DNA of 36,809 nucleotides from an uncultured Prevotellaceae bacterium (lineage in GTDB: Bacteria; Bacteroidota; Bacteroidia; Bacteroidales; Bacteroidaceae), in assembly GCA_902799905.1 (NCBI GenBank), contig CADCCB010000002.1, forward strand, positions 1-36,809. Direction: 5' to 3'. Each line of letters starts with the position of its first letter. The first letter of the stretch is position 1. Below are positions 13,124 through 32,549 of this stretch, one piece after another. The notes under the pieces are model-generated. The model saw only the letters and a program-made list of their open reading frames with translations, ran no database searches and was not told the DNA's origin. The position numbers and the translations under genes were made by a program.

Positions 13124-13131
13124 CAAAGATA
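13124..13131 (-). promoter_or_regulatory. -7 box of birA
   Basis: TATCTTTG on the minus strand, 4 bases before the birA ATG. This places the transcription start at or very near the initiator codon. No -33 TTTG is seen. Confidence 0.55.
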
Positions 13132-13176
13132 AACAAAAATATCGGGAAAAGAGAAATTCTTCTCGGTTTTTCTTCG

Positions 13177-13184
13177 TATCTTTG
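13177..13184 (+). promoter_or_regulatory. -7 box of the M64 peptidase gene
   Basis: TATCTTTG on the plus strand, 28 bases before the ATG at 13213. It is one half of the divergent birA/M64 promoter region and has no clear -33. Confidence 0.5.
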
Positions 13185-13212
13185 CACCGAAAAGAAAAGA
13201 CAGCAATCATCA

Positions 13213-14874: not shown

Positions 14875-14887
14875 TCCTCTTTATACG

Positions 14888-15331: not shown

Positions 15332-15347
15332 AACAACTTTCTCATGT

Positions 15348-16487
15348 TTAGAACATCGTAGCCATCCATTCCGATAGGAAGAAATCCTGGATACGAAAGC
15401 AGTTGTCTGACTGGGTGATCAAGTCATTCTTCAACAACAGTTTGATTGCCGATTGTACGGAACTGGCTGAAGTAAGATTATACTTCTTTATAAACTTCGC
15501 TGCTGTTATATTCTTTGCGATGCCCTCCTTGGCAATCGCTTGCATGACGACTTTCTGTTTTGGCGAAATCCTTGATAGGATATCTTTATATGTGTTTTCT
15601 TGCGACATGATGACGTTGTGTCGAGCCTCGGTTACCATGTCAATAGTGCATTTGCCATTTGGCGGTGTCAAAGCAAACAGTTCGTTCATCAGCATCTGAA
15701 CAAACCACGTGTAGCCATCGTACAAATTCCAAACAGTCTCTATGGCTTGCCGTTCTATTTGCTTATTACTCTCCTGAAACAAAACAGTAGCAAAGTCTGA
15801 ATAACTCTGAATAGGTATGGCTTCCAATGACATGTTGACGGCGCTCTGATAGAAAGGTTTTGAAGGAGAGGCAAACATGTTACTCATCATGTGACGTTTA
15901 CTTCCAGAGAATATAAACTGTGCACGGTGACACATCTGTATCTTAGTGCGTAGGAGAGCCTCCATGTTTTTCTCAGCATATTCGCTGATTTGCTGAAACT
16001 CGTCTATGGCAATGATGCAAGGCTTGTCGGCCTCTTCAATATAAGTGAATATCTCGTCAAGGGTTGTCTGTGGCACTAAGATATCGCCTAAGCCCAGGTC
16101 AAATGTAGGGGTGCCGGTCATCGGGTCTAACTTGAATCCCACACGGAACGATGCTATTGTCTGGAAGAACTTCTCTTTCCATACTGTAGTCTTTGGCTTC
16201 AGTTGCTCGTAGATCTCCTTGCCAAGTGTATAGACAAATTCGGCAAGAGACGTAGTAGCATAGATATCGACAAAGAATACGTGATAATTCTCTTTGATGT
16301 CTTGTTGGTTGAAGAAATGATGGATTAGTCCGGTCTTACCAAGACGACGAGGCGAAATCAATGCGACATCCCTGCCGTTAACTATCTGTTTACGCAGGAA
16401 TGCAGTTTCTTCCACCCTGTCGCAAAAGTATTTGTCGGAGAGGTATTTGCCGACAACAAACGGATTGTTAATTTCGATTTCCTTCAT
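15348..16487 (-). CDS. AAA ATPase (archaeal-type ATPase / DUF234-like family)
   Basis: A 379-residue P-loop ATPase. It opens with NNPFVVGKYL and a conserved FCDRVEE (about 21-27). The Walker A variant is SPRRLGKTGL (45-54) and the Walker B is IIAIDEFQQI (158-167), with a sensor-like Arg/Ser block (FSGSKRHMM). It ends in a winged-helix domain (about 310-375). Such single-gene ATPases are often multicopy in Bacteroidales; their function is unclear. I start it at 16487, not at the upstream ATG (16559), because a TATATTTG promoter box sits between them and because the family starts near KEIEINNPFV. It is convergent with tadA and is the only gene in the inserted segment. Confidence 0.85.
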   Translation of the reverse strand: MKEIEINNPFVVGKYLSDKYFCDRVEETAFLRKQIVNGRDVALISPRRLGKTGLIHHFFNQQDIKENYHVFFVDIYATTSLAEFVYTLGKEIYEQLKPKTTVWKEKFFQTIASFRVGFKLDPMTGTPTFDLGLGDILVPQTTLDEIFTYIEEADKPCIIAIDEFQQISEYAEKNMEALLRTKIQMCHRAQFIFSGSKRHMMSNMFASPSKPFYQSAVNMSLEAIPIQSYSDFATVLFQESNKQIERQAIETVWNLYDGYTWFVQMLMNELFALTPPNGKCTIDMVTEARHNVIMSQENTYKDILSRISPKQKVVMQAIAKEGIAKNITAAKFIKKYNLTSASSVQSAIKLLLKNDLITQSDNCFRIQDFFLSEWMATMF

Positions 16488-16654: not shown

Positions 16655-18289
16655 TTAACGAGCCACTACCTTACGTCCTTTCTGGATGTAGATGCCCTTG
16701 CGGGGACTATCTATCTTGCGGCCTTGCAGGTCGTAGAAAGGCGTGTTGTCAGGAGCCGCGATACTACTGGCAGTTTCTATGCCAGATGTTTCCGCTGCCT
16801 TGACAATCAGTGTGTTGTCGGCATTCTTCGTTAGAATGTATTCATTATGGTTGCCTCCCGGATAGCAGATGAATTGCGAGGTCTTGTCTTGTATGGCTTT
16901 TGAAGCAAGGAACACCCTATACGTGCCTGCAGGCAATGGCAGGAGGTCTGTTATCGAGATATTGCTAAAGTTGCTTGCATAATAACCCACTCCACCATCT
17001 ATAGGAGTGAGGTGATTTGCCTTGTCACTTGTATCAAAGAATGCGTGGAAGTACACTTCGTTACCATTATCATCCAGGAAGGCCAACCCAACCTTCCCAT
17101 AGAATGTCAAGTGGCTGACCTGCCAAATGATACCTCCTGGTGATGATAGGGTAAGTCCATTGACTTCATTGGCTATCAAGTTATCCTCAACACTGATGAC
17201 CCAGCAGGAGCGATAGACGGCATCAGCGGCTGGTGTAGGATTGCAGCGCAGATTCGTGATGATGGACTGTTCTGCATTGAAATGCATTGTCGAAGATTCT
17301 CCCAGAATTCCTGTGGGGTTCAAGTCTGCCAGATTGTAATAACCATCAGCCTGTCCGTTCCAGCCCCAATTAACATGGACATATCCATTCGCATCCATTC
17401 CGTCAATAATGAAAGCATGACCGCCGCTTGACAGGTCAAGACCGCACATCAGTACAGGCCGACCAGCCTTCAGTTCACTAAGAATGATGTTCATCCACTC
17501 TGCATCATTCTGGCAATAGTCACGCATCACACATTCCATGGCAAGCGAGTCAAATTGGAAAATATGTGAAAAGCCGTTGGCTGCCTCGTATGCCGTTGTA
17601 CCACTGCCGCCACTAGAGAAATTCATGTGCGAGGAAACTCCAGCATCGAACATCAATTGGCTGATGGCATCCTTTTCCTCATCGGAGAGGAACCAGGCAC
17701 TGGCATAGGAATTCTTCATCAAATCCCATCTGTAGGTACTATTGACTTCCACTAACTGCCTGTATGAGTTTTCACCCATCGTGTAATAGCCCATACCGTG
17801 ACCTTGTGCAGGATACTGATAGAAGTTGAGTATCTGTGACATCGCTGTTGCCACACAGCCAGTAGGTGCCTTGGAATTGTTCACTACTGGACTTTTTTCG
17901 TTGAAGGGCGAGTCCTGTCCCCATGTGGTTTTCAGCATTGGTGCCACCACTTCCGGCACGAAGCCTTCAACATCCTGACTTTGCCCATTCAGGGAGAGCG
18001 AGGCATTGATTGTTGACAACCACCATTTCATTCCACAGGGCATGTTGTCCTTGTTATAGGGCGATGAAGAATAGGCCAGAACAGGTGCATGGCTATCCAT
18101 TTTGCTGATAATGGCAAAGCCTTTTGGGTTGCCATAGACACAATAGCCTTCCGACTCGTCCAGCAATTCTACTTCTTGCTGCATGATGGCGGTTTGGGCG
18201 ATACGGCACATTTCTGCTCTTTTCCTTGGTTTGGCTGACACCGACAGGCTTACTGTCAGTAGGAAGAGGAGTAAGGTCGTTTTATTCAT
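16655..18289 (-). CDS. C10 family cysteine protease (streptopain-like), left operon
   Basis: A 544-residue secreted papain-like protease. It has a signal peptide (about 1-19), a Spi/propeptide-like region (about 25-120), catalytic Cys145 in APTGCVATAMSQ, His291 in SSGGHAFIIDG and the VNWGWNG block (306-312). A long beta-rich region follows. The C-terminus reads FYDLQGRKI then GIYIQKGRKVVAR, the short tail common on exported Prevotella proteins that resembles a type IX secretion signal. Family members include SpeB, interpain A and the Bacteroides fragilis Bfp proteases. It is the last gene of the left SusC/SusD operon, but a strong hairpin separates it from the preceding gene and no promoter box is seen, so expression probably depends on readthrough. 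Confidence 0.93.
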   Translation of the reverse strand: MNKTTLLLFLLTVSLSVSAKPRKRAEMCRIAQTAIMQQEVELLDESEGYCVYGNPKGFAIISKMDSHAPVLAYSSSPYNKDNMPCGMKWWLSTINASLSLNGQSQDVEGFVPEVVAPMLKTTWGQDSPFNEKSPVVNNSKAPTGCVATAMSQILNFYQYPAQGHGMGYYTMGENSYRQLVEVNSTYRWDLMKNSYASAWFLSDEEKDAISQLMFDAGVSSHMNFSSGGSGTTAYEAANGFSHIFQFDSLAMECVMRDYCQNDAEWMNIILSELKAGRPVLMCGLDLSSGGHAFIIDGMDANGYVHVNWGWNGQADGYYNLADLNPTGILGESSTMHFNAEQSIITNLRCNPTPAADAVYRSCWVISVEDNLIANEVNGLTLSSPGGIIWQVSHLTFYGKVGLAFLDDNGNEVYFHAFFDTSDKANHLTPIDGGVGYYASNFSNISITDLLPLPAGTYRVFLASKAIQDKTSQFICYPGGNHNEYILTKNADNTLIVKAAETSGIETASSIAAPDNTPFYDLQGRKIDSPRKGIYIQKGRKVVAR

Positions 18290-18363: not shown

Positions 18364-19224
18364 TTATTTCTGTCCAGGCCATCCAGTTGTCCACTGGAAG
18401 GCAAATGAGAAGCCGGTGTAGTAACCTTCGCCGTTATCCAGACCCAGCATAGATGCCTGATAGACATTGCCGTTGCACTGGAGTATGCAATAACTACCTT
18501 CATATTTCTTCACCCAGCAGAAGTCATACTGGTCGGCAGAACATACGATATCATCACCATTAGCAACAAGGTTGATGGTGTAATCGTTATTGAGTGTGAA
18601 TTGGATGCCAGTATCGGTTGTGAATCCATTACCACCCTTTCCATAGACAGCAATAAACGGCTGAACAATACGATATAGGTTAGTGCCCTCAGCATGCTGG
18701 ATGGGTACATCCTTGGCTGCCTTGCCATTCTCAGAGAAGGTGTAGTCAACGAATGTGCAAGAACCTCCAGAGAGCCAGTTGTAGTCAGAGTGAATCTTGA
18801 TGACGATAGAGTCATTCTGCGTGTTCGTGATAGTATCACGTCCAGCAACTTCAGCCTCACTCAGTTTCAGTGTGTAGGTGTAGTCAACACCCTTGGCCAG
18901 GTTGTCAGCCTTCACGTTGATGATGGCAACGCCCTGTCCTGCCTCAAACTTCACGGCACCATTGGCATCGTTGGTGAAGATACCCTCTTCACTAGCCTTA
19001 GTTGTAAAGTTGGCAGTATACTCATTAGCAACCACGGAACGTACAATACGTACGGGAATCACGATAGAAGTCTCCGCTGTAGTGACAGTGGACGGAGCAC
19101 TTGTCTCGAAAGATACGTTCTGGCCCATGGGTGAATAGGTGACACCCTCTACGTCGGTGTTGCAGGAAGTCATCACTCCCAGCATGGCGACTGCCAGACC
19201 TAATAGAATCTTGTTTATTTTCAT
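18364..19224 (-). CDS. Surface lipoprotein, third gene of the left SusC/SusD operon
   Basis: A 286-residue lipoprotein with a lipobox (GVMTSC, Cys21). The first half reads like an immunoglobulin-type or Calx-beta-like domain (FETSAPSTVTTAETSIVIPVRI through YTYTLKLSEAEV). The second half is a compact domain rich in Gly, Tyr and Trp. Position after SusD suggests a SusE/F-like ligand-binding role. Because a protease follows, an inhibitor or substrate-presenting role is also possible. No enzyme motif is seen, and I do not recognise a named family. Confidence 0.85.
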   Translation of the reverse strand: MKINKILLGLAVAMLGVMTSCNTDVEGVTYSPMGQNVSFETSAPSTVTTAETSIVIPVRIVRSVVANEYTANFTTKASEEGIFTNDANGAVKFEAGQGVAIINVKADNLAKGVDYTYTLKLSEAEVAGRDTITNTQNDSIVIKIHSDYNWLSGGSCTFVDYTFSENGKAAKDVPIQHAEGTNLYRIVQPFIAVYGKGGNGFTTDTGIQFTLNNDYTINLVANGDDIVCSADQYDFCWVKKYEGSYCILQCNGNVYQASMLGLDNGEGYYTGFSFAFQWTTGWPGQK

Positions 19225-19257: not shown

Positions 19258-20838
19258 TTACTTGTCTTCAATCGGGTTCTGATCTGTGTCCTCGCTCATG
19301 TTCTCGTTACCGTCGAACTCCTTCTTAGGAATGGTGAGCACCCACATGTAGTTCTCGGGATCATCGCTAGGACGATTGGTCAGCAAGATGTCGGGGTTGT
19401 CAGGCCAACCCTGATCGGTGGTGCGGCGGAAGCCCTGCTTCAGACGGCGAATATCAAATACGCGACCGTATTCACCCCAGAGTTCGATACGACGCTGGTC
19501 GATGATAGCCTCACGCAGCGAACCAGTGCGGTCGCTGGTCAGAGCGCCCAGTGCAGTGCCTGTCTTAGCACAGTTGTAACTAGCATCGCGGGTCTTAACC
19601 AACGTGTTCAGGTACTGCTGAGCCTTGGTATCGTTACCCAGCATACACTCAGCCTCGGCAGCAGCCAGATACATCTCCTCAATACGCATCCACACATAGT
19701 CACCCTCCCAAGTAGACAGTGACTTGAAGTGGAACTTGTGCTGCTGGTAGCCACCATCGCCATTATTGGCATCATTGGGATCCCACCAGCAACGACGTGT
19801 GTCAGATGCACTCATCAGGTTGTAGGTGTGCTTGTTGATCTGCTTGTTGGCACGGTTGTAGCCGGCATAGAGAGAAGCGGTTACGTCCATGTGAGCAAAG
19901 AGAGAAGCATACATACCAGCCTGGTCAGGGATAATCGTAGCACCCCACATCACGTTGCCGAACGAGCAAGTGTTGATGAAGTTCGACTGGTTCATGGCAT
20001 ACTTGCTGGCATCGACAGGCTGGATGGTGTACTTACCCAGATCGATAGCCTTCTCGGCAGCCTGAGCAGCAGTAGCCCAGTCTTCCTGAGTGAGGGCGAT
20101 ACGGGCCTGAATACCCAGAGCAACAGGATAGGTCACATAACTCTTGTCATTAGTATCCAGCGATGTCTTCTGGCTTTCCTCCAGATAGGCTACGCCCTTC
20201 TTGATGTCTTCGTTAATCAGGTCATAGACTTCCTTGACAGTAGCACGGGGATGACCCTTGGTATTTGCCGATGTGGGCTCCGTATAGATAGGAACGCAAG
20301 GCTCGTTCTCGTGACCTTTGTAGGTACGGGCGAAGCATTGAGCCAGCATGAAGTAACTATAGGCACGGATGGAGTAAGCCTGACCAAGCACATACTTCTT
20401 GTCAACGTCAGCGGGGTCGAGACCAGCCTCCATGGCAATCAGATAGTTCACGTTGGCAATGTAAGTGAAGTAGGCATACCAGAGGTCGTAACTACGCCAT
20501 GCACCACTGGTGTAGGCATCCTTCACATCGTAGGTGGCATCGAACCAGAACCAGCCCGAACCCATTTTCGACATGATGCAGTCATCGCCCATCACATCAG
20601 CCATCAACGCATAGGCTGAAAGGCCGAAACACTGGTGGGTGTTACCCGTTGTAGACCAGCCAGAGGTGTACATCGAACGATAGAGACCATTGAGCGAAAT
20701 CATGGCAGCATCGTTGCTTTCGGTCATTGTCGTACCCGAAACAGCCGTGGTAGGCGATGTCTCAAGTTGATCCTCGCTGCAAGAAGTGGTCAGAGCCAAC
20801 GCAGCGAAACCCATGAAAATATATTTTAGACTTTTCAT
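19258..20838 (-). CDS. SusD/RagB-family outer membrane lipoprotein, left operon
   Basis: A 526-residue lipoprotein with lipobox LTTSC (Cys20) and the SusD helical framework: NVNYLIAMEAGLDP, YVLGQAYSIRAYSYFMLAQCFAR (TPR-like) and a C-terminal LREAIIDQRRIELWGEYGRVFDIRRLK, a hallmark of the family. It forms the lid of the SusC transporter and captures substrate at the cell surface. It lies 17 bases downstream of susC. The paired protease suggests peptides as substrate, as for RagAB of Porphyromonas gingivalis; this is an inference. Confidence 0.95.
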   Translation of the reverse strand: MKSLKYIFMGFAALALTTSCSEDQLETSPTTAVSGTTMTESNDAAMISLNGLYRSMYTSGWSTTGNTHQCFGLSAYALMADVMGDDCIMSKMGSGWFWFDATYDVKDAYTSGAWRSYDLWYAYFTYIANVNYLIAMEAGLDPADVDKKYVLGQAYSIRAYSYFMLAQCFARTYKGHENEPCVPIYTEPTSANTKGHPRATVKEVYDLINEDIKKGVAYLEESQKTSLDTNDKSYVTYPVALGIQARIALTQEDWATAAQAAEKAIDLGKYTIQPVDASKYAMNQSNFINTCSFGNVMWGATIIPDQAGMYASLFAHMDVTASLYAGYNRANKQINKHTYNLMSASDTRRCWWDPNDANNGDGGYQQHKFHFKSLSTWEGDYVWMRIEEMYLAAAEAECMLGNDTKAQQYLNTLVKTRDASYNCAKTGTALGALTSDRTGSLREAIIDQRRIELWGEYGRVFDIRRLKQGFRRTTDQGWPDNPDILLTNRPSDDPENYMWVLTIPKKEFDGNENMSEDTDQNPIEDK

Positions 20839-20854
20839 TGTTTATATCCTTTCT

Positions 20855-23800
20855 TTAGAAGTTAATATCAAGACCAAGTGAGAACGTCTTGTTGGGAGCG
20901 TAGCGGTAGTTGGTACCACCAGAGAAGTTGTACTGGGGATCCATACCCTTCATGTGAGAGAAGAGGGCCACGTTGTCGAATGAAGCATAAGCGCGAACTT
21001 TGTTCATATAAGCCTTCCTTGTGAGGTTAGCAGGCAGTGTGTAGCCCAGAGTGATATTCTTGATGGCGAAGTAAGAAGCATTCACCAGGAAGTTATCAGT
21101 CAGCGTGCGGCTATAGTTCAACTGAGCACGTGGAATATCGGTGATATCACCAGGCTGACGCCAACGACGATCCATGTTTGTTGACCATGTGTTATAAGCA
21201 TAGGTGTTGGTCATCGAAGAATAGTACATTGAGTCATAAATCTTACCACCGATAGAGTAGGTCGTCATGATGCTCAGGTCGATGCAACGGAACAACTGCA
21301 GGTCGGTAGAGATGCTGCCATAGAGGTCAGGAGTACGCTTGCCAGCGAAGTAGCGGTGGCTGGAAGCAACGGAATAACTGTCGGTGATATATTCACCACC
21401 AGGTGTACGGCCAATCTCCTCGCCAGTTGTCTCATCGTAAACGGGAACGTAGCAGTTGCCTTCGTCATCCATGTGATCGTAAGCCCAGTAGAGTTGCGCA
21501 CCCGTCTGAGGATCCACACCAGCACTCTTGGCTACATAGAAAGTATGAATGTCAAATCCTTCCTTGATGATCTGCGAGCCGTTTATAATCTGGTTTGACT
21601 CATCGGTCAACTTGAGCACCTTGTTCTTCATAGCGGTGCCCATCCAACTCATGTTCCAGACAACGTCCTTGGTCTTCAGGATGGTGCCGCTCAGCATGAA
21701 CTCCCAGCCCCAGTTACGCATGTTACCCACGTTGGCATCATAGCCAGTGAAACCAGTAGACAGAGCCATCGGGTAGTTCAGAAGCATATCGGTAGTCTTC
21801 TTGCTGAAGAACTCAATGCCGAAGCGCAGACGGCTGTCAAACACAGAACCATCAAGACCGATGTTCAACATGCCGCTCTTTTCCCATGTCAGATCCTTGT
21901 TCTCAAGTGTGCTCACGAAGCCACCGATGTTGTTACCGTTAGGATAGGCCAGTGAGTAGAGGTTCTGCCATGCATAGTATGTGGTCAGGTTCTCGTTACC
22001 GTTCTCACCGTAAGAAATCTTGAAGTTCAGGTTGCTCAGCCAGGTGAGGGGCTTCATGAACTCCTCGGCAGAGACACGCCAGTTACCACCAACCGACCAG
22101 AAGGTACCCCAGCGGTTGTCCTTATGGAAGCGTGAAGAACCGTCGGTACGAATAGATGCATCGAAGTAGTACTTGTCATCGAAGTTATAGTTCACACGAC
22201 CCAGCCATGACTCGATATCGTGCTCATAAGAGTAAGAGTCGGCATCATAGATAGAAGCACCGGGACGCAGTTCATCGATACCATCAACGATGTTGGTCTT
22301 ACCAGCCGACAGATAGTTGTAAGTGTACTGATAGAACTCGTGAGCAGCCAGGGCGCCAACATTGTGCTTGCCAAACTGGCGGTTCCAAGTCAACTGCTGG
22401 TTGAAGGTGTAACTCTGCGTGCGCTTATCCTCCTTACCAATCATACCACCGGCATTCTTCTGGTTGCCGTGGAACTTGTTCTTCGTCTGAGTCTCGTTAC
22501 GCTGACGATAGTCGCCACCGAAGTTCAGCGTCAGTTTCAAGCCCTGAGCCCATCCCATCTTAGCATCGTCAGAACCGAAGGTCAAGTAGGTACGAACGCT
22601 GGCATTGTCAGTTGTATAGTAAGTACGGTCGAGTGTCAAGTCGCCCAGAGGGTTGAAGTCAGCAGCCGTAGGACGTCCGTCCTCACCATAGTCAGGCTGA
22701 CGGTTGCCGTAGTTATCCAGCACGTCATTACCGTTGATGTCCTTACGATAGAGTTGGTAGATAGGTGCCATGAACTGCGAGGTGTACCAGGGGTTCGAAG
22801 TACCTGTATCGTTGAAATCGGTATAGTCAGTCTTTGTGTGAGCCAAACTTGTGCTCAGGCCAGCCTTGAACCAGTCGGTAATCTGGGTGTCCACATTGGT
22901 ACGAGCGTTGTAACGCTGGAAACCAGTGTTCATCAGAATACCCTTCTCATCGGTATAACCCAACGACATCAAGTAAGTGGTACGGTCGGTACCGCCGTTC
23001 ACAGAAAGTTGGTGATCATGGCGCAGGGCACCCTTGTTGTAGGTTCCGTCGAGCCAATCCTCGTTCCAAGCCGACTCAGCATCAGCACGAACCAGACCAG
23101 TAGCAGGATCGATCAACTGATCCCAAGTATAGTTCTTGAAGGGGTTGTACATCTCACCACCGAAAGTAGTAGACAACTGCTGGCGAGCCACGGCACATGC
23201 CTCGTCGTAACTCAGGCCGTTGCCGAACTGCTGGTTGTTGCGCAGAGCCTCATAGGTGATCTGTACGAATTCCTTCTGGTCTACGGTCTCATAGCGAGGC
23301 AGTGCACGCCAAGACCAACCCACAGTGTTGTGCAAGGTTACCTGCAGGTTACCTTCCTTACCCTTCTTGGTAGTGATGATGACCACACCGTTGGCAGCAC
23401 GGGCACCATACAGAGCCGATGCAGAAGCATCCTTCAGCACGGTCATGGACTCGATGTCCTGAGGACTGATGGTGTTCAGAGCACCGTTGTAAGGAATACC
23501 GTCAACCACATAGAGGGGGTCGTTGTAGGCATTGATAGAACCGAAGCCACGCACAATGATGCTGGCATCGCTACCAGGCTGACCACCACCAGAGGTCACT
23601 GTCACACCAGCCACCTGGCCGTCGAGGGCTTTGGTAACGGTAGAAACAGGGCGCGAGTCAAGTTTGTCACTGCTGATAGCAGCGGCAGAACCAGTGAACG
23701 ATGACTTCTTGGCTGTACCATAAGCCACCACAATCACCTCGTCAAGAGCCTTGTTGTTGCTGGTCAACAAGATGCGCATGTTAGGACGGGCACTCACTTC

Positions 23801-24043
23801 CAGAGGCTCCATACCCACATAAGTAATACGCAGCGTGTTCTTACCAGCCGGACAGGTCAGCGAGAACTGACCATTAGCGTTAGTTGCAGTACCGACATTG
23901 GTTCCTACGACCATCACGGTAGCACCGATAACGGGCTGACCGTCGTCCTGAGACACCACGGTACCATTGACTTTTGTCTGGGCCATCGCACCTCCCACGA
24001 ACAGGAAGAGGACTGCCAACAATGTCATGAGTCTTTTTTCCAT
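20855..24043 (-). CDS. SusC/RagA-family TonB-dependent transporter, left operon
   Basis: A 1,062-residue outer membrane transporter. It has a signal peptide (about 1-21, cut before QTKVNG), a carboxypeptidase-regulatory-like domain (about 23-100), a TonB-interacting stretch DEVIVVAYGT, the plug (PGSDASIIVRGFGSINAY; VLKDASASALYGARAANGVVIITT) and a beta-barrel ending in FSLGLDINF with the C-terminal Phe expected for barrel assembly. The first 130 coding bases are nearly identical to the right susC (26868), and the protein similarity continues to about residue 115. The only full promoter in the region reads into this gene. Confidence 0.96.
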   Translation of the reverse strand: MEKRLMTLLAVLFLFVGGAMAQTKVNGTVVSQDDGQPVIGATVMVVGTNVGTATNANGQFSLTCPAGKNTLRITYVGMEPLEVSARPNMRILLTSNNKALDEVIVVAYGTAKKSSFTGSAAAISSDKLDSRPVSTVTKALDGQVAGVTVTSGGGQPGSDASIIVRGFGSINAYNDPLYVVDGIPYNGALNTISPQDIESMTVLKDASASALYGARAANGVVIITTKKGKEGNLQVTLHNTVGWSWRALPRYETVDQKEFVQITYEALRNNQQFGNGLSYDEACAVARQQLSTTFGGEMYNPFKNYTWDQLIDPATGLVRADAESAWNEDWLDGTYNKGALRHDHQLSVNGGTDRTTYLMSLGYTDEKGILMNTGFQRYNARTNVDTQITDWFKAGLSTSLAHTKTDYTDFNDTGTSNPWYTSQFMAPIYQLYRKDINGNDVLDNYGNRQPDYGEDGRPTAADFNPLGDLTLDRTYYTTDNASVRTYLTFGSDDAKMGWAQGLKLTLNFGGDYRQRNETQTKNKFHGNQKNAGGMIGKEDKRTQSYTFNQQLTWNRQFGKHNVGALAAHEFYQYTYNYLSAGKTNIVDGIDELRPGASIYDADSYSYEHDIESWLGRVNYNFDDKYYFDASIRTDGSSRFHKDNRWGTFWSVGGNWRVSAEEFMKPLTWLSNLNFKISYGENGNENLTTYYAWQNLYSLAYPNGNNIGGFVSTLENKDLTWEKSGMLNIGLDGSVFDSRLRFGIEFFSKKTTDMLLNYPMALSTGFTGYDANVGNMRNWGWEFMLSGTILKTKDVVWNMSWMGTAMKNKVLKLTDESNQIINGSQIIKEGFDIHTFYVAKSAGVDPQTGAQLYWAYDHMDDEGNCYVPVYDETTGEEIGRTPGGEYITDSYSVASSHRYFAGKRTPDLYGSISTDLQLFRCIDLSIMTTYSIGGKIYDSMYYSSMTNTYAYNTWSTNMDRRWRQPGDITDIPRAQLNYSRTLTDNFLVNASYFAIKNITLGYTLPANLTRKAYMNKVRAYASFDNVALFSHMKGMDPQYNFSGGTNYRYAPNKTFSLGLDINF

Positions 24044-24202
24044 AAATCTCTCTCGTTTTTTTGGTTTATAATGTTTAATATTTAGTGTTTGTATTATCTT
24101 CCTTTGTCTTGTGGCTAACTAATATATATGTACACGTACATTATTATATAAGTCCAACATACTTTGCTCACTCTTTGCAAACCTCCCGCCCGGAGGTGTG
24201 CA
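23916..24202. repeat. Left arm of the long inverted repeat
   Basis: Pairs in inverted orientation with 26711-26995. It covers the first 128 coding bases of the left susC, its leader and the upstream region. By hand alignment there are about 8 substitutions and 2 single-base indels over about 285 bp. The outermost 43 bp (24160-24202) are perfectly matched, and the match stops abruptly at 24202. Confidence 0.9.
24128..24141. promoter_or_regulatory. Palindrome in the left repeat arm
   Basis: ATGTAC-AC-GTACAT, a perfect 6-bp inverted repeat with a 2-base centre, present in both arms (right copy 26772-26785). It is a candidate recombinase or regulator site. Confidence 0.4.
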
Positions 24203-24240
24203 GAGGGCACAGCGAGGGAGGGGCAATTTGTTACAGAGTG

Positions 24241-24272
24241 CAAAAGTAATTAATAGTTTTTAAAAAACCAAA
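24241..24272 (-). promoter_or_regulatory. Promoter of the left susC operon, just inside the invertible segment
   Basis: Minus strand: TTTG (24269-24272), exactly 20 bases, TACTTTTG (24241-24248). It lies 39 bases inside the left repeat boundary and about 200 bases before the susC ATG, giving a long leader that runs through the whole repeat arm. The interval 24044-24380 otherwise holds only the repeat arm and AT-rich sequence. No equally good promoter lies at the same place on the right. Confidence 0.75.
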
Positions 24273-24380
24273 TATTTTTTTTAAAAAGTTAGTTTTTATG
24301 CGCAAAATGTACCAAATTCAATAAAAAAGGGCTAAAAAGAGTGAAAATTGCCATGAGTTTCGTTTGTATACTATCATCTG

Positions 24381-25334
24381 TCACCTACTACCCTTTTCAA
24401 TCATTGTAATGACGGTATGATTGGCCGTTTCCACCCGTTGGTCGTTTATCTCGCGGATATAGGTCAGAGTAATCTGTGTGTTAGTGTGACCAAGAGCCTT
24501 CGATATGACAGGCAAGTCTATATTTGCATTGTAAGCCGCACTTGCCCACGAATGGCGTACTACATAACTTGTCAGGTTCTGACTGATAGATGCTAAACGG
24601 GCCAGACGATGCAGTGCACGATTGTATCGACCAAGTATCACGTTGTATTCATGTGAAGTTCCATTTTGCAACAAGGGGAACACATAGCCTGCCTTGGTTT
24701 TATCACTATGTCGCTGAATGATGTCCAACATGGGCTGTTCGATAGTAATCTGTACCCGTTGACCCGTTTTGTGTCGATAGTAGACTATATGGCCATTGAC
24801 TATCTGTTGTTTTCGCAAGTGGGCCACATCCACAAAGGGCATACCCATCGCATAGAAACAGAATATGAATACATCACGAGCCAATTCGAGGAAACTATTG
24901 CTGGGCAGTTGCAAGGTTTTTATTCTACTTATGGCTTCCGGTGGAATCGATCTTTTTTCTGTTTTCGCGCTCCCCGTGTAGACTTTAGCGAACATTTTCT
25001 TCGTGTCCCCGTTGATGCCGGCAAATAGCGACCGCAACGACCGCATATAGCAAGAAATGGTATTTAGGCAGATATTCCGTCTTTTCAGCCAACGCTCGAA
25101 ACCGCCAAGCAGGTTGGCAGAGAGTTCACTCGCGGGCAAATCACGTTTTAAAAATTTACTGAGGGCACGTATGGCAGTGGCATAATTGCTCATTGTGCTG
25201 GAACTACGATAGGCTGACACCTGATTGTACTGCTGCCACAGGATTTCCAGCAAGGATTCAGTAGCGTTGAATCGTCTCTGATTAGAGGGATTTGTTGATT
25301 GGTGGTCGATAATGACGTTGATATTAATGTTCAT
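24381..25334 (-). CDS. Tyrosine recombinase within the invertible segment (DNA invertase candidate)
   Basis: A 317-residue integrase of the Bacteroidales type. It has an N-terminal SAM-like core-binding domain (about 30-115) and a catalytic domain with the Lys hairpin RHKTGQR (187-193), the Arg box SYVVRHSWASA (256-266, Arg260), LGHTNTQ (His283) and the nucleophile Tyr292 in TLTYIRE. The position of the first catalytic Arg reads YAMGMPFVDVAHL (161-173), where relatives I recall have YTRGM; IntDOT of CTnDOT also lacks the canonical Arg I. I took the ATG at 25334; 25340 and 25418 are alternatives. Its place between divergent susC genes with inverted repeats strongly suggests a SusC/SusD invertase. 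Confidence 0.88.
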   Translation of the reverse strand: MNININVIIDHQSTNPSNQRRFNATESLLEILWQQYNQVSAYRSSSTMSNYATAIRALSKFLKRDLPASELSANLLGGFERWLKRRNICLNTISCYMRSLRSLFAGINGDTKKMFAKVYTGSAKTEKRSIPPEAISRIKTLQLPSNSFLELARDVFIFCFYAMGMPFVDVAHLRKQQIVNGHIVYYRHKTGQRVQITIEQPMLDIIQRHSDKTKAGYVFPLLQNGTSHEYNVILGRYNRALHRLARLASISQNLTSYVVRHSWASAAYNANIDLPVISKALGHTNTQITLTYIREINDQRVETANHTVITMIEKGSR

Positions 25335-25410
25335 AAGCATATGTTGATTTAGAATAAAAACATATGAAAAGTCACGTATAGACAGGCATTTCGCAAAGCC
25401 ACACATACAC

Positions 25411-25430
25411 TGCCACACGCGGGCGTGGCA
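25411..25430. repeat. Small palindrome upstream of the recombinase gene
   Basis: TGCCACACGCGGGCGTGGCA contains CACGC-GG-GCGTG. There is no T-run on either side. It might be an operator of the recombinase promoter region. The interval 25335-25638 otherwise holds a terminator and a degenerate 21-bp repeat and no convincing gene. Confidence 0.35.
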
Positions 25431-25483
25431 TTCTACTAGGTTAAAAGACTTGCACCCACCCCAGGCGCCCTACGCACCCAAAA

Positions 25484-25546
25484 TCATGAAAATAGCACCG
25501 CGAGTTATAAAAATATCTCCGTATGCCATAAAAATCGGGCTCTTCG
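25484..25546. repeat. Degenerate 21-bp repeat, about three units
   Basis: Read on the minus strand, three units of the form GGnGATATTTTTAT plus about 7 bases follow one another (ATTTTTATGGCATAC, ATTTTTATAACTCGC, ATTTTCATGATTTTG). They overlap the terminator of the nuclease gene. They could be binding sites or remnants; similarity is imperfect. Confidence 0.35.
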
Positions 25547-25560
25547 CGATGTGAGCCCGA
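25529..25560 (-). terminator. Intrinsic terminator of the Rpn nuclease gene
   Basis: TCGGGCTC (25535-25542) pairs perfectly with GAGCCCGA (25553-25560) around a 10-base loop, followed on the minus strand by TTTTTAT. It isolates the nuclease gene from the recombinase gene downstream. Confidence 0.8.
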
Positions 25561-25638
25561 CAATATTTTTTACAAAGTACGCTCAAATTTGTCAAAATGA
25601 AAATCGGAGAAAGCCGAAAATGCATTTTTTGCGTTTCC

Positions 25639-26556
25639 TCAAAGAGCAGCAATCCTCTCCGGTTCAAGCCCTGTGGCCTTGGCAATATCGGCATTGACCA
25701 TGCCCATCTGTTTCAGTGATCGGGCAATAGTAAGTTTTTCTTCTTCACGACCTTCTTCGCGACCTTCTTCACGACCCTCCTCAATGCCCTCTTCTCGGCC
25801 TTCTGCACGACCCTCTTCCCTGCCCTCAATGCGTGCCGTGGCTATATTGTCTTTCAGAATGACAACATTATCCAAGTGACGATAATAAGATTGTAGTTCC
25901 GCCTTGCTCATGCGGGTTATTCGCAGGGCTTCTCGCGCTTCCTGTAAACCAGGGGCATCGGCATCCTCAGGGATGTCACCCGTATTGAGCGAATATATCC
26001 ATTGCTCAAGCGGAACCTTCGACCAGCGGTTGAAATCATTGACCTTCAGAATGAAGTATTCCGGATAGAGGTCACTGACAGCATCTGCCTTGAACTTCTG
26101 CTGCTGGAAAGGCGACAGTGACAACACTTCACCATTGTGGATGCCGCGGAATTCTGTTTTGCCATGATACACAAAGTCGGTGCCATTGCCCAAATTGAAA
26201 TAGACTATGTTGATGCTGTACACCTTACGGATGTTCTCATAGCCCTGTCCGCGATTGATATACTCCGTAACCAGTTTTGACGTGCCAAAAAGCATACGCT
26301 GGAAATAGGCAAACTCGGTCTCGTTCTGAATCTCTATCAAATAAAGTTCACCACGCTCACCCTCGGCCAGCAAGTCTACACGGTTCTGCTTGTCACTGGC
26401 GTCTTCTTGGTTGCTCTCGCTTTCCAGCAACTTCTTGATTGTAATTTTCTGACCCAGCAGAGTGGTTACCAATCCTGCAAGGACTCCATAGTTCGCCTTG
26501 TTGCGGAGCAACTTCTTCATGGCCCAGTCAAACCGCACGAATTGTTCTTTTTCCAT
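25639..26556 (-). CDS. Rpn family recombination-promoting nuclease / PD-(D/E)XK putative transposase
   Basis: A 305-residue protein. The nuclease core shows VDLLAEGERGELYLIEIQ, with Asp61, Glu75 and Gln77 as the D-ExQ form of the PD-(D/E)XK site. It begins FVRFDWAMKKLLRNKANY, typical of the PDDEXK_2 group. Residues 243-274 are a run of EGREEGR repeats, also common in this group, and the end is a helical MVNADIAKATGL motif. Rpn proteins are RecA-independent recombination or anti-phage-associated nucleases. I use the ATG at 26556 (26559 is equivalent) because a perfect promoter lies 21 bases upstream; the longer frame to 26715 would contain that promoter. It sits within the invertible segment. 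Confidence 0.88.
   Translation of the reverse strand: MEKEQFVRFDWAMKKLLRNKANYGVLAGLVTTLLGQKITIKKLLESESNQEDASDKQNRVDLLAEGERGELYLIEIQNETEFAYFQRMLFGTSKLVTEYINRGQGYENIRKVYSINIVYFNLGNGTDFVYHGKTEFRGIHNGEVLSLSPFQQQKFKADAVSDLYPEYFILKVNDFNRWSKVPLEQWIYSLNTGDIPEDADAPGLQEAREALRITRMSKAELQSYYRHLDNVVILKDNIATARIEGREEGRAEGREEGIEEGREEGREEGREEEKLTIARSLKQMGMVNADIAKATGLEPERIAAL
25738..25835. repeat. 12-bp-type tandem repeat encoding EGREEGR
   Basis: Near-identical units of CTTCTTCGCGAC / CTTCTTCACGAC type repeat across the 3' part of the nuclease gene. They encode residues 243-274. Copy number could vary by slippage without shifting the frame. Confidence 0.7.
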
Positions 26557-26565
26557 CATCGCCAA

Positions 26566-26573
26566 TACTTTTG
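26566..26573 (+). promoter_or_regulatory. Possible plus-strand -7 box toward the right operon
   Basis: TACTTTTG on the plus strand, with only ATTG at 26541-26544 as an imperfect -33 partner. It overlaps the nuclease promoter on the other strand and would give a leader of about 290 bases to the right susC. It may be chance; if real it would give basal right-operon expression. Confidence 0.25.
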
Positions 26574-26576
26574 GTG

Positions 26577-26608
26577 CAAATGTAGCACTTTTTTCGGACA
26601 ATCCCAAA
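26577..26608 (-). promoter_or_regulatory. Promoter of the Rpn nuclease gene
   Basis: Minus strand: TTTG (26605-26608), 20-base spacer, TACATTTG (26577-26584). A perfect match, 21 bases before the start at 26556. It also fixes the nuclease start codon. Confidence 0.8.
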
Positions 26609-26662
26609 AAAATCGAAAGGAAAAGTACAGAAAAAGATGAACGAAGCCTTCGGCCCAACAAA

Positions 26663-26692
26663 CAGGGTGCGCAGGGTGCGCCAGGTGCAGGC
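26663..26692. repeat. Short tandem repeat near the right arm
   Basis: CAGGGTGCG occurs twice in direct tandem (26663-26671, 26672-26680), followed by a degenerate third unit (CAGGTGCAGG). It lies 18 bases inside the right repeat boundary, so it could be an accessory binding site. It has no clear counterpart at the left boundary. Confidence 0.5.
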
Positions 26693-26710
26693 CTTTTCTG
26701 TAACATATAT

Positions 26711-26995
26711 TGCACACCTCCGGGCGGGAGGTTTGCAAAGAGTGAGCAAAGTAAGTTGGACTTATATAATAATGTACGTGTACATATTTATTTATTAGCC
26801 ACAAACAAAGGAAGATAATACAAACACTAATTTTTAAACATTATAAACCAAAAAACGAGAGAGATTTATGGAAAAAAGACTCATGACATTGTTGGCAGTC
26901 CTCTTCCTGTTCGTGGGAGGTGCGATGGCCCAGACAAAAGTCAGTGGTACCGTGGTGTCTCAGGACGACGGACAGCCCGTTATCGGTGCTACCGT
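26711..26995. repeat. Right arm of the long inverted repeat
   Basis: Inverted copy of 23916-24202. The first 43 bases (26711-26753) match perfectly, then one mismatch, then 33 more perfect bases. It covers the leader of the right susC and 128 coding bases. The interval 26560-26867 holds this arm, the nuclease promoter and the short tandem repeat. Confidence 0.9.
26772..26785. promoter_or_regulatory. Palindrome in the right repeat arm
   Basis: ATGTAC-GT-GTACAT, counterpart of 24128-24141. Confidence 0.4.
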
Positions 26996-29900
26996 CAAAG
27001 TGGTAGGCGCTGAAGTCGGTGCAGTAACAAATGCTAACGGTCAGTTCTCGCTGACCTGTCCAGCAGGCAAGAACATGCTTCGCATCACTTATGTGGGTAT
27101 GGAGCCTCTGGAGGTAAGTGCCCGTCCTAACATGCGCATCCTGCTGACTAGCGATCAGAAGGCCCTTGACGAGGTAATCGTTGTGGCCTACGGTACGCAG
27201 AAGAAATCATCGTTCACGGGTACTGCTGGTACGATGAAATCTGACAAAATCGAGAAGTTGCAAGTGTCCAACCTGTCAAAGGCCCTTGAGGGTGCTGTGG
27301 CTGGTGTGCAGATTGCCTCTGCTTCTGGTACTCCTGGTTCTGGTGCAAGCATTATCGTGCGTGGTATCGGTTCTATCAGCAGTTCTCAGAGCCCGCTGAT
27401 TGTTGTCGATGGTGTGCCTTATGAGGGATCGCTGAACTCAATCAACTCACAGGACATCGAGTCCATGACCGTGTTGAAGGATGCTGCTGCAAACTCTATG
27501 TATGGTGCCCGTGGTGCCAATGGTGTAATCATTATTACAACCAAGGGAGCCAAGTCTGGCAAGGCTAAGGTGAACTTCGAAGGCCGCTGGGGTTTCAACA
27601 CCCGTGCCGTGCCCAACTATGACATCATCACTGACCCAGGTGAGTACTACGAGATGTTCTATGAGGCCTATCGTAACAACCTCTCTGGAACGATGGGAGA
27701 GGCTGCTGCTGCCCAGTATGCTGCAGCCCACATGATTGACGAACAGTTGAAATACAATGCCTATCAGGGTGTAGCCGATGACCAACTGATTAACCCTCTG
27801 ACTGGAAAATTGAATCCCGCGGCAACGACTTTGAAATGGGGTGACGACTGGACTAAGGATCCTTTCCGCAGTTCTTTGCGCCACGAGTACAACGTTAATG
27901 TCAGCGGTGGCGACGACAAGACGCAGGCTTACGTTTCTGCCGGCTATCTAGGTGACAAGGGCTATATGCCTGGTTCCGACTTCGACCGTTTCTCGGTTCG
28001 TGGTAAGGTAGACCAAAAACTGGGTCAGTATGTGAAGGTGGGTGCCAACCTGTCGTATGCTCGCACCAATCAGCAGCAATTTACCACCAACCCCACTGGC
28101 TATAGCAACTATTCGAACATTTTCATGTTCTCACAGATGATTGCTCCTATCTATCCTATTTATCTTTATAAAGAGAATGCTCAAACTGGTAACTGGGAGC
28201 GATGGCTCGACGCCAACGGTAACACACAGTATGACTGGGGTACAGAGTATGCACGTCCTTACGGTTCGGAGCAGAACCCACTGGCTGCTGCCAACCAGAA
28301 CATCAACGAGATTATCCGTGACAACTTCAGTTCACGTGGCTATTTTGAGGTGAACTTCCTGAAGGACTTCAAGTTTACGGCTAATGTGGCCTACGATGTA
28401 TTCAACACTATGCAGACCCGTTTCATGACTCCTGTTGGCGGTGATGCCAAGAACGTGGGTGGTCGTGGCTATAAGAATACAAGCCGCTACGAGGCTCTGA
28501 ACGTGAACCAGATTCTGGATTGGAACCACGAGTTCGGTGAGCACAGCGTTCACTTGATGGCTGTTCATGAGAACAAGACTGACCGTAACAACTACCTGTA
28601 TGGTCAGATGACGGGCTTCGCTGACTACACGAATCCTGAGTTTACCAATGCAGCCCTCTATCAGGACTTAACTTCTTACCAGTATGAATATGCTCTTGAG
28701 GGCTACCTGTTTAAGGGTGAATATGATTACGATGACACTTACTATCTGAATGCCAGCATTCGTCGCGACGGTTCTTCTCGCTTCCACAAGGATAACCGTT
28801 GGGGTACGTTCTGGGCTATCGGTGGCGCTTGGCGTGTTGACAAGGAGCAGTTCATGCAGAACGTCAAGGTTATCAACTCACTGAAGATTAAGGCAAGTTA
28901 TGGTACACAGGGTAACGATAATATCGACTCGGACTATATGAATGCCTATTCTGATATGTATGGTGTAGGTCGTCTGGCCGGTGGCGCAGCAGCGTTCTCA
29001 AAGTATTTCCGTGGCAATACTGACCTGACATGGGAGAAGCAGTCGATGTTCAACGTAGGCTTTGAAATGGGTCTGCTGAAGCGCATCAACATCAACTTCG
29101 ACTTCTTCGTGAAGAATAACAAAGATATGCTGTTCGCCAGCCCGCTGGCTCAGTCGGAGGGTGCCCCCTCTTGGATCTACAGAAACGAGGTTGACATGCG
29201 CAACACTGGTTTCGAAGTGGAGATTTCTGCAGACATTATCAAGACGAATGACCTGCGTTGGACGGCTGCACTGAACTTTGCACACTACAAGAACAAACTG
29301 ACCAGACTTCCTGTTTCGAAACCCGAAGAGAAGTATCCTTCTGGATTTGAGCGTGGCAGTTACTGGTGGAAACTCGGTAGCAGCATCTATAACTGGAGCG
29401 GCTATGAGTATGTTGGCGTTGACCCGACTAACGGTAAACCCCAGTACAACAAGTACACTTATGAATATGACGACAACGGCATCGTGAAGGTGGATGGCGA
29501 CGGCAATCCTATCGTAAAGAGCGTCGAGATTGTCAACACTTCTTCCGAGGCTACGGTTGTTAATCTGAATAAGAGCGCTATCCCCGACCTGACAGGTGGT
29601 TTCTCGACCAGTGTTGAGTATCGCGGCTTCGATCTGTCTATTCAGACAGCCTTCCAACTGGGTGGCTATGTGCGTGACAGTTATTATGCTTCGCTCATGA
29701 ATTCTGGTGACCATGGTCAGAACTTCCATAAGGATATGTTCAACCGCTGGACACCCGCTAACACCAACACCAATATTCCACGCCTCCAGGCCAGCAGCCA
29801 GGATGCCTCTATCTACAGCACTTCAGATTTCTTCCTGACCAAGGCCAACTACTTCAATCTGAAGAACGTGACGCTGGGCTATACCCTGCCTGCTAATCTG

Positions 29901-30068
29901 ACCAACAGGATTGGCATCGACCGTCTGCGTGTGTACATTTCAGGCGACAACATCTGGCTCGCTTCAAAGCGTAAGGGTCTTGACCCCCGCCAGAGTTTCA
30001 GCGGTGCAACCGATTTTGTATATAGCGCACTGAGTGCATACTCTGCAGGTGTGAATATCTCATTCTAA
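26868..30068 (+). CDS. SusC/RagA-family TonB-dependent transporter, right operon
   Basis: A 1,066-residue outer membrane transporter with the same build as its left partner: signal peptide to about residue 21, carboxypeptidase-regulatory-like domain (23-100), DEVIVVAYGT, plug (SGASIIVRGIGSISSS; VLKDAAANSMYGARGANGVIIITT) and a barrel ending AYSAGVNISF. The N-terminal 115 residues are nearly the same as in the left protein, while the barrel differs widely, so the two probably bind different ligands. With the segment in its present orientation no strong promoter reads into it, so it may be the silent partner. Confidence 0.96.
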   Translation: MEKRLMTLLAVLFLFVGGAMAQTKVSGTVVSQDDGQPVIGATVKVVGAEVGAVTNANGQFSLTCPAGKNMLRITYVGMEPLEVSARPNMRILLTSDQKALDEVIVVAYGTQKKSSFTGTAGTMKSDKIEKLQVSNLSKALEGAVAGVQIASASGTPGSGASIIVRGIGSISSSQSPLIVVDGVPYEGSLNSINSQDIESMTVLKDAAANSMYGARGANGVIIITTKGAKSGKAKVNFEGRWGFNTRAVPNYDIITDPGEYYEMFYEAYRNNLSGTMGEAAAAQYAAAHMIDEQLKYNAYQGVADDQLINPLTGKLNPAATTLKWGDDWTKDPFRSSLRHEYNVNVSGGDDKTQAYVSAGYLGDKGYMPGSDFDRFSVRGKVDQKLGQYVKVGANLSYARTNQQQFTTNPTGYSNYSNIFMFSQMIAPIYPIYLYKENAQTGNWERWLDANGNTQYDWGTEYARPYGSEQNPLAAANQNINEIIRDNFSSRGYFEVNFLKDFKFTANVAYDVFNTMQTRFMTPVGGDAKNVGGRGYKNTSRYEALNVNQILDWNHEFGEHSVHLMAVHENKTDRNNYLYGQMTGFADYTNPEFTNAALYQDLTSYQYEYALEGYLFKGEYDYDDTYYLNASIRRDGSSRFHKDNRWGTFWAIGGAWRVDKEQFMQNVKVINSLKIKASYGTQGNDNIDSDYMNAYSDMYGVGRLAGGAAAFSKYFRGNTDLTWEKQSMFNVGFEMGLLKRININFDFFVKNNKDMLFASPLAQSEGAPSWIYRNEVDMRNTGFEVEISADIIKTNDLRWTAALNFAHYKNKLTRLPVSKPEEKYPSGFERGSYWWKLGSSIYNWSGYEYVGVDPTNGKPQYNKYTYEYDDNGIVKVDGDGNPIVKSVEIVNTSSEATVVNLNKSAIPDLTGGFSTSVEYRGFDLSIQTAFQLGGYVRDSYYASLMNSGDHGQNFHKDMFNRWTPANTNTNIPRLQASSQDASIYSTSDFFLTKANYFNLKNVTLGYTLPANLTNRIGIDRLRVYISGDNIWLASKRKGLDPRQSFSGATDFVYSALSAYSAGVNISF

Positions 30069-30098: not shown

Positions 30099-31610
30099 AT
30101 GAAAATATTTAAATATATGTCAATGGGACTGCTGACACTGGCACTGGCCTCATGCAGCAGTGATTATCTGGACAGAGAGGACTTGCGTGGTTTGGATGCT
30201 GAGGCCGCTGCTACTGCAGCCGGTAACAATCCTGACGTGTTCCTCAATGGTATCTGGTCGCACTTGGTAGATATGTATGGAACTCAGCACGACACATTCA
30301 ACTTCATGGCTACTCTCCATGCTTGCGACATGGGTACTGAGGATATCGCCATGGGTGCTGAGCACTGGTTCAACTTTGACTATCAGGTTGACAACCGTAT
30401 GTACAACTATCGTCGTGTAAACGTGGGTTGGAGTACATTCTATACCACTATTTCTAAGGCTAATGAGGTTATCGGCCTCTATCCTAAAGGACCATCGACT
30501 GATGGTGAGAAGGCTCTGGTGGGCCAGGCACTTGCCATGCGTGGATTCTCATACTATTATCTGATTCAGTTGTTCCGTAACTATATGAATGCTGACGGTA
30601 CGGTTAACATGGCTCAGAAGGGTCTGCCTCTGATTCTTACATCTGTTGATGTGGCTGACGAAGCAGAGCGTACAAAACTGAAGGGTGCTAATACTGTTGC
30701 CCGTGTATTCGAACAGATTGAGAAAGACCTTACTGAGGCTGTCAAACTTCTGGAGGAGGCAAATTATAAACGTCCTTCTAAGAACTATGTTGATGCCCAT
30801 GTTGCCTACGGACTTCTTGCCCGTTACTACCTGATGGCCCAGAAGTGGTCGGAGGCAGCAACAGCGGCCAACAAGGCACGCAGTGGAAAATTTTACGAGG
30901 GTGACGCAGGCTATGAGCCTATGGGCAATGCCGGTCTTCATGATGGCTTCTATAATGTTGAGAATGCAGAGTGGATGTGGGGCTTCGACCATTCTACAGA
31001 AACTACTACTGTTTATGCATCGTTCTTCTCAATGATTTCCAACTTGGCTCCTGGCTATGCAGGTCTTGGCTATGCTCCCCGTCTGATTGACGCTCGTCTG
31101 TACAGTCAGATTCCTGATGACGACTATCGTAAGAGCCTGTTTAATGGTCCTGCTGGCGACAAGAGTCAGCCTACCGATGCCGCTCAGTTACCTTATGCAA
31201 ACATCAAGTTTGGTAACGATGGCAACTGGACAATGGACTATATGTATATGCGTGCTGCCGAGATGTATCTTATCGAGGCTGAGGCTTTGGTTCGTCAGGG
31301 CAATGCCAGTCAGGGTGCTAAGGTTCTGGGTGAGTTGATGAAGTATCGTCAGCCAAGTTGGAACGAGGCTACTACAACTGTTGATGAAATCCTCTTCCAG
31401 CGTCGTATAGAACTCTGGGGTGAAGGTTTCCGCTGGTTCGACATGAAGCGTAACAACCTCGGTATCGATCGTACATACGAAGGCAACAACCACCTGCCAG
31501 GTGACTATCAACTTACTATTCCTGGACAGGATGTTCGCTGGACTTACCAGATTCCGCGTACTGAGATGCAGGAGAACGACCAGTTGACAGATGATGATCA
31601 GAACCCATAA
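30099..31610 (+). CDS. SusD/RagB-family outer membrane lipoprotein, right operon
   Basis: A 503-residue lipoprotein (lipobox LALASC, Cys19). SusD features are KANEVIGLYPKGP, ALVGQALAMRGFSYYYLIQLFRNY and the late DEILFQRRIELWGEGFRWFDMKRNNL. It starts 30 bases after the right susC and forms its substrate-capturing lid. It is clearly diverged from the left SusD, consistent with a different ligand. Confidence 0.95.
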   Translation: MKIFKYMSMGLLTLALASCSSDYLDREDLRGLDAEAAATAAGNNPDVFLNGIWSHLVDMYGTQHDTFNFMATLHACDMGTEDIAMGAEHWFNFDYQVDNRMYNYRRVNVGWSTFYTTISKANEVIGLYPKGPSTDGEKALVGQALAMRGFSYYYLIQLFRNYMNADGTVNMAQKGLPLILTSVDVADEAERTKLKGANTVARVFEQIEKDLTEAVKLLEEANYKRPSKNYVDAHVAYGLLARYYLMAQKWSEAATAANKARSGKFYEGDAGYEPMGNAGLHDGFYNVENAEWMWGFDHSTETTTVYASFFSMISNLAPGYAGLGYAPRLIDARLYSQIPDDDYRKSLFNGPAGDKSQPTDAAQLPYANIKFGNDGNWTMDYMYMRAAEMYLIEAEALVRQGNASQGAKVLGELMKYRQPSWNEATTTVDEILFQRRIELWGEGFRWFDMKRNNLGIDRTYEGNNHLPGDYQLTIPGQDVRWTYQIPRTEMQENDQLTDDDQNP

Positions 31611-31637: not shown

Positions 31638-32549
31638 ATGAAGAATATATTTAAATTGATGATTCCGTGTCTGGCTGTCGTTTTCTCTCTATTCAGTTGT
31701 AACGACACAATGGACGATAAGGCTGCCATTGATGCACAGTATGAAAAGCCATCTGCAGCATCTGTCACTTTGGCATCTGCTACTGCTGTGGATTTCCAGA
31801 CTATTAACGCCACAGGAACTGTGAGTGGTCTGGAGTTGAATGTGGTTTGCCCAAAGTGCGGCTATAGCGCAACTACTGTTCCTGAGAAATGTCCAAATTG
31901 TGGAACGGGCGACAGTCTGTTTGTTGAAGTAAGTAACATTGCTGAATTTGGTATCCAGATTTCTAAGTTACAGGATTTCGCAAGTGAGGTTACTACCTTT
32001 ATTGCAGACTTTGAATCACTTTCCTTCGATATCACAGCATCTGGCTTAGAAGAACTTACAACTTATTATGTACGTTCTTATGTTGTTACATCTACAGCCG
32101 GCACTCTTGTTTCTGATGTTAAGACTGTTACCACACCTAAGGCTCCAATATTCCCAATTGATGGCGAATATATAGCAACAGAGTGGGATTACAACCAGGA
32201 TACAGGTGAGTGGGAGAATGCCGGTCAGTATGAGATGGCAATCTCTGTCGACCCAGAAGATCCAACAATCCTGAACATTACTAACATCTGGGATGGCGGA
32301 TTGACCGTTCAGGGTCAGTATGATGCTACTAAGGGTATTGTTACGGTTCCTAACTTGCAGGTTATCTATGTTCACGCTACATATGGTAACGTATGGATCC
32401 GTGGTGTGAACTCTGCAGTAACAGCATACACATCTGCAGTTCAGTTCCAGTTCACGGCTCTTGGTGGTAAGATGCAGTCAACTCCTATGGGTGCTATTTG
32501 TGCTGCAGGCTCATTTGGTTTCTTCTATCTGACAATGGAGCATAAGTAA
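31638..32549 (+). CDS. Surface lipoprotein with a zinc-ribbon-like four-cysteine motif
   Basis: A 303-residue lipoprotein (lipobox SLFSC, Cys21). Residues 71-88 have the arrangement C-x2-C-x10-C-x2-C (CPKCGYS, then CPNCG), identical in form to a rubredoxin/zinc-ribbon knuckle pair. It is embedded in what looks like a fibronectin-type or immunoglobulin-like domain (about 42-168, with ELTTYYVRSYV). The C-terminal domain (about 175-303) resembles the ligand-binding ends of SusE-like proteins. The last base of its stop codon is the first base of the protease start (TAATG), so the two are translationally coupled. No known family was recognised. Confidence 0.87.
   Translation: MKNIFKLMIPCLAVVFSLFSCNDTMDDKAAIDAQYEKPSAASVTLASATAVDFQTINATGTVSGLELNVVCPKCGYSATTVPEKCPNCGTGDSLFVEVSNIAEFGIQISKLQDFASEVTTFIADFESLSFDITASGLEELTTYYVRSYVVTSTAGTLVSDVKTVTTPKAPIFPIDGEYIATEWDYNQDTGEWENAGQYEMAISVDPEDPTILNITNIWDGGLTVQGQYDATKGIVTVPNLQVIYVHATYGNVWIRGVNSAVTAYTSAVQFQFTALGGKMQSTPMGAICAAGSFGFFYLTMEHK

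Follow-up and report, generated by a model that had tools for sequence, protein, structure and literature searches.

Candidate recombinase-carrying promoter switch between two divergent susC operons in an uncultured Prevotellaceae bacterium

In Salmonella, the serine recombinase Hin works on an invertible segment that bears both the recombinase gene and a promoter and that drives one operon, and in Campylobacter fetus (sapA) a single promoter moves, by a RecA-dependent inversion, between two divergent genes for surface proteins whose 5' ends are homologous, the inverted segment carrying secretion genes. The locus described here shares with the Hin system the placement of recombinase and promoter on the segment itself, but its recombinase is of the tyrosine type and an operon lies on each side; what sets it apart from sapA is a dedicated recombinase together with a short site.

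In Bacteroides fragilis, Tsr0667 is associated with shufflon-type SusC/SusD inversions in three clusters and nine other regions (Nakayama-Imaohji 2009, as described in PMC4747536 and PMC11852207). Compared by description, Tsr0667 and our locus have in common an inversion by a tyrosine recombinase that changes, or in our case would change, which SusC/SusD genes are expressed, but the former consists of multiple inversions, whereas the latter would be one segment with its own recombinase between two operons. The short promoter invertons of the Bacteroidales lie beside tyrosine invertases and consist of 17-bp-type palindromes with a promoter between them; the 6+5+6 layout of our site is also that of a Parabacteroides consensus, GCTACTYRGNRAGTAGC, whereas these invertons have GTTAC-type palindromes instead of ACCTCY, are gene-free and turn one operon ON or OFF (PMC12118408). 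Unlike the short invertons, our segment should in either orientation be ON for one of two operons. SusC/SusD inversion, promoter invertons and GTTAC palindromes are treated in PMC4747536, PMC11852207, PMC12632263, PMC10939037, PMC12118408, and PMC8748976, and SusC/SusD inversion is as such already known; the literature searched, which largely excluded subscription papers, yielded no account of a selector that carries its own recombinase and lies between two SusC operons, and within that literature such a selector is apparently new. At least one inverton survey discarded invertible regions containing or overlapping coding sequence, so that recombinase-carrying switches would have been dropped there (PMC8748976). 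For the present locus we favor, at a probability of roughly 0.85, a two-sided, recombinase-carrying phase switch in which one promoter would serve two opposite operons.

Organization of the locus

The genome comprises 3.42 Mb in 89 contigs and is 92% complete; the window, by which we mean the whole stretch of 36,809 nucleotides analysed, lies on contig C2. Two susC-susD operons diverge from either side of a 2.8-kb centre, and their leaders form inverted arms: the left arm (23916..24202, minus strand, 287 bp) covers the susC leader and the first ~128 coding bases, and aligns with a right arm of 285 bp (26711..26995, plus strand). The arms are identical in 277 of 285 aligned columns, with 2 gap positions (97%), and their innermost 43 bp (24160-24202 and 26711-26753) are the same throughout. 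Exact inverted identity runs for at least 69 bp, where the search stretch ended, whereas 30 mononucleotide shuffles gave no match longer than 18 bp (counting stopped at 59). The alignment thereby bears out the sequence-only reading, which had described mirrored susC leaders and 5' ends as inverted repeats of about 285 bp; the 5'-terminal 128 coding bases, included in that description, are near-identical between the two susC genes but differ at 2 positions.

Both operons have the gene order SusC, SusD, a protein of ~290-300 aa, and a C10 protease. On the minus strand, the left operon consists of susC (20855..24043) and susD (19258..20838), a 286-aa protein with a lipoprotein-like start, as judged by eye (18364..19224), and a C10 cysteine protease with a Spi inhibitor domain (16655..18289); its plus-strand counterpart on the right consists of susC (26868..30068) and susD (30099..31610), a 303-aa protein with a similar start, also by eye (31638..32549), and a C10 cysteine protease with a Spi inhibitor domain (32549..34210). 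Over whole proteins, left and right are 43% identical for SusC, 29% for SusD, and 37% for the C10 protease; BLASTP between the two ~290-300-aa proteins gave no match. Past the left operon lie genes for a BACON-domain M64 peptidase (12634-14874) and a cytidine-deaminase-like protein (14888-15331).

A left-facing promoter of the Bacteroidetes type, TTTGG...TACTTTTG, matches the consensus at 24241..24272 (minus strand; -33 TTTG, -7 TACTTTTG). One perfect promoter just inside the left arm had been claimed from the sequence; it is present, but two further promoter-like matches to the consensus lie between the arms. One reads leftward (26577..26607, minus strand) and is probably the nuclease gene's own; the other reads rightward at the nuclease start (26542..26573, plus strand), which counts against one-sidedness, but lies 142 bp inside the right site, outside the 16-77 bp placement seen in relatives, and is probably fortuitous, judged by position alone. 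Within the 92% complete genome, the left leader sequence matches only the two arms. The best reading of the locus as drawn is that the left operon would be ON and the right OFF.

Domain matches corroborate the tyrosine recombinase and the nuclease gene proposed to lie between the arms. The recombinase, presumably the invertase (24381..25418, minus strand), has an open reading frame with Phage_integrase (4.8e-14) and Phage_int_SAM_5 (8e-12) domains. At the positions that align with the Lys, second Arg, last His, and Tyr of the Xer catalytic set, the residues are kept in 62 of 62 relatives; against switch activity, the position of the first catalytic Arg of XerA is Pro in 61 of the 62. Some Bacteroidetes recombinases, such as IntDOT, also do without the first catalytic Arg. 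The nuclease frame (25639..26715, minus strand) matches PDDEXK_2/Rpn at 5.7e-22 and TIGR01784 at 6.1e-21; its true start is likely near 26559, given the promoter-like match and the start of the domain.

Candidate crossover site and its recurrence

A 17-bp palindrome, ACCTCC-GGGCG-GGAGGT, lies in the left arm (24181..24197, minus strand) and, inverted, in the right (26716..26732, plus strand), both copies within the perfect inner part of the arms. It belongs to a site class common to related loci and is likely the crossover site, which the sequence-only reading had left unnamed. A flip of 24203-26710 had been envisaged; the comparative loci support an inversion, but its exchange point is better placed in the palindromes. 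In the mechanism that we propose, the tyrosine recombinase would act on the two inverted palindromes, one in each susC leader, and would invert the ~2.55-kb segment between them, which holds the recombinase, the nuclease, and, close to one of its ends, a single promoter. In either orientation the promoter would come to lie 43 bp behind one of the sites, so that the operon on that side would be transcribed through its near-identical leader and the other would be silent; as the leaders are near-identical, either operon would be read in the same way. The arms, the sites, the promoter match, the gene content, the recurrence of the arrangement, its one-sided promoters, and the opposite orientations in related species are observed; we infer that the recombinase cuts the 17-bp sites, that the window locus is flipping now, and that only one operon is transcribed at a time, and the biological role considered below is likewise inferred.

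Loci with related recombinases were collected for comparison, 64 in all, namely the window, 49 places in the genus (E <= 1e-60 in 398 genomes; 51 places in 47 genomes minus the window and one duplicate), one at E 3e-47, and 13 further places from 399 genomes of the family. As classified by script, the recombinase lies between two divergent susC genes in 28 of the 64 (24 with a flanking inverted site pair and 4 without), beside one susC in 5, and beside none in 31; of these 31, 17 have a short inverton of 166-389 bp with the same site class, resembling the Bacteroidales invertons, and no site was found in the other 14. Because several of the recombinases are close to contig ends, the counts for one susC, none, and no site may be too high. 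Within the 24, the pair of L101 is weak, the sites of L122 and L126 are variants, the pair of L090 was set by hand, and L090/L109 and L117/L118 are close kin. In L101 and L107 the common leader stretches are 28 and 25 bp and the site is half-decayed. The recombinase frames of L089 and L091 are interrupted by a stop, so that some switches may be decaying.

In 21 of the 64 loci, an exact inverted pair of RYCTCY-N5-RGAGRY lies no more than 4.5 kb from the recombinase; five control motifs with this shape each gave 0/64, and none of 20 rounds of mononucleotide shuffling produced a pair. The 5-bp core is mostly locus-specific, yet identical between both sites of one pair, as suits site-specific recombination. 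The organism's own genome, at 92% completeness, holds four sites of the class RCCTCY-N5-RGAGGY, against three for a control pattern, among which the window's two are the only pair; no further paired target regions of this class were found there, in contrast to the several regions described for Tsr0667. Two single sites were considered as remote targets and set aside: that on C11 lies inside an ORF and has no partner of the same class, and that on C12, a lone site-like palindrome (G000:C12:18980-18996, L158), has no such partner in the genome and is at chance level by the control count. Beside related recombinases in genome G371, copies of CCAGGG-TGTTG-CCCTGG occur in both orientations (L139:1285-1734 and L138:5940-6070); L139 has four, one of them mismatched, and could be a multi-site inverton.

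On a recombinase tree that included 23 of the 24 two-susC loci, these recombinases are clustered but do not form one clade, and the idea of a single clade of two-susC switches was rejected (12 label changes, against a shuffled mean of 18.9). A scan of viral contigs yielded no relatives of the recombinase; that of genome contigs yielded three distant ones with best segments of 37-42% identity, two of them from Xylanibacter caecicola, and by script none of the three had a SusC match. The nearest recombinase relative (55% identity; L100:8193-10057) adjoins a convergent Rpn nuclease; this locus lacks a divergent susC pair, and a susC at 13712-16153 points towards the recombinase.

The arms raise the question of whether most inversion is driven by RecA-type homologous recombination between the 285-bp repeats, with the recombinase in a minor part, in the manner of the C. 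fetus sapA switch, as their length and 97% identity would allow. In 23 pooled two-susC loci (a few starts were miscalled by the script), identical residues of the paired SusC proteins share the same codon at a frequency of 0.83 over codons 0-39, dropping to 0.51-0.60 in bins past codon 120, and in the window pair at 35 of 36 and then 21 of 33 residues; this excess at the 5' ends is suggestive of additional homogenisation of the arms through recombination. We nevertheless consider RecA-driven inversion unlikely, since a defined 17-bp palindrome, its core short and asymmetric, recurs within arms of otherwise different sequence, and the same palindrome flanks the 17 short invertons beside related recombinases.

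Promoter side and orientation in related loci

In 23 of the 24 two-susC loci with a site pair, an outward TAnnTTTG box lies inside exactly one of the two sites (searched 10-80 bp inside the site, observed at 16-77 bp); none has it at both and one, L101, at neither. Among 440 control windows of equal width, placed deeper in the segments, 15 contain TAnnTTTG. All 23 promoters have TTTG or TTCG at the -33 place, as judged by eye, and 20 of the 23 are on the 3' side of the recombinase. Against one-sidedness, the right susC of L122 has an extra promoter match outside its own site.

The switch might be real in the family and yet locked or decayed in the window, with the left operon always on. The window locus is known in a single orientation, and its -7 box, at 43 bp inside the left site, falls outside the commonest distance of 25-36 bp (19 of 23); with no mismatch in either site or in the innermost 43 bp of the arms, and with an open recombinase frame, we hold a locked locus to be quite improbable.

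Opposite orientations are found between related species, and the two-sided switch would account for them by inversion of the segment. In L113 and L127, both operons are swapped relative to the 5' and 3' ends of the recombinase: the matched operons are 87% and 84% identical over 3.3 kb, compared with 69-70% for unmatched combinations, alignment breaks off no more than about 30 bp from the sites, and homology stops ~5-6 kb out on both sides. The segments themselves are just 75% identical over 1,065 aligned columns, so the segment may instead have been replaced in the other orientation. In L117 and L118, with segments 95% identical, a 91% identical operon lies at opposite ends; the sites mark the break, and the two loci differ in their partner operon. 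L090 and L109 have the same orientation, with a 95% identical segment, one operon at 99%, and the other at background DNA similarity. Among 13 flank pairs (>= 70% identity over 2.5 kb), which are not independent of one another, 7 have the promoter on opposite sides and 6 on the same side; a freely flipping switch, with a contribution from operon exchange, would leave such a pattern.

The sequence-only reading had held that a flip would carry one promoter from the left operon to the right, a claim supported both by the one-sided boxes in 23 of 24 loci and by the operons found at opposite ends in relatives. The absence of any inverted orientation from related genomes, which it had named as evidence to the contrary, was examined in part, and opposite orientations between related species are what was found.

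The nuclease is probably cargo, because few segments hold another ORF of >= 90 aa (5 of 24, the window included; none in 19 of 24). Large ORFs elsewhere are those of L115:5744-7801 (685 aa), L113:8565-9833 (422 aa), and L091:7015-8145 (376 aa), and as these differ, the cargo varies. A DNA search of 200 genus genomes with the 2.75-kb centre matched 92, in pieces and mostly in the nuclease gene, and did not find the whole locus. It could therefore be argued from these scattered nuclease copies, and from the mirrored leaders that an operon duplication would yield, that a mobile recombinase-nuclease element inserted by chance between duplicated operons and never flips, but this is very improbable given that the SusC proteins are 43% identical against 97% for the arms, that the arrangement recurs with one-sided promoters and mostly without another ORF, and that opposite orientations exist between species.

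Implications for surface uptake

SusC/SusD complexes are surface-exposed and decide what the bacterium imports. The two operons of the window resemble peptide or protein uptake modules, to judge from their gene content; of 46 flanks, 12 gave a C10 protease match, and 5 of 23 loci had such a match on each side. Because the operon sets are parallel, a population would show alternative surface modules of uptake plus protease, and the alternation could serve diet, immune avoidance, or phage avoidance. More tentatively, and with somewhat less than an even chance, the locus may be a self-contained selector module, widespread in the genus, that is also a point of operon exchange through its homologous leaders, so that one flank could be exchanged without loss of the switch or the operon opposite, a reading drawn from L090/L109 and L117/L118, in which the segment and one operon are shared and the other operon differs. 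Further copies are easy to locate by the 17-bp site and the promoter spacing, and a selector of the either/or kind, as opposed to an ON/OFF promoter, would be a simple and testable bet-hedging circuit.
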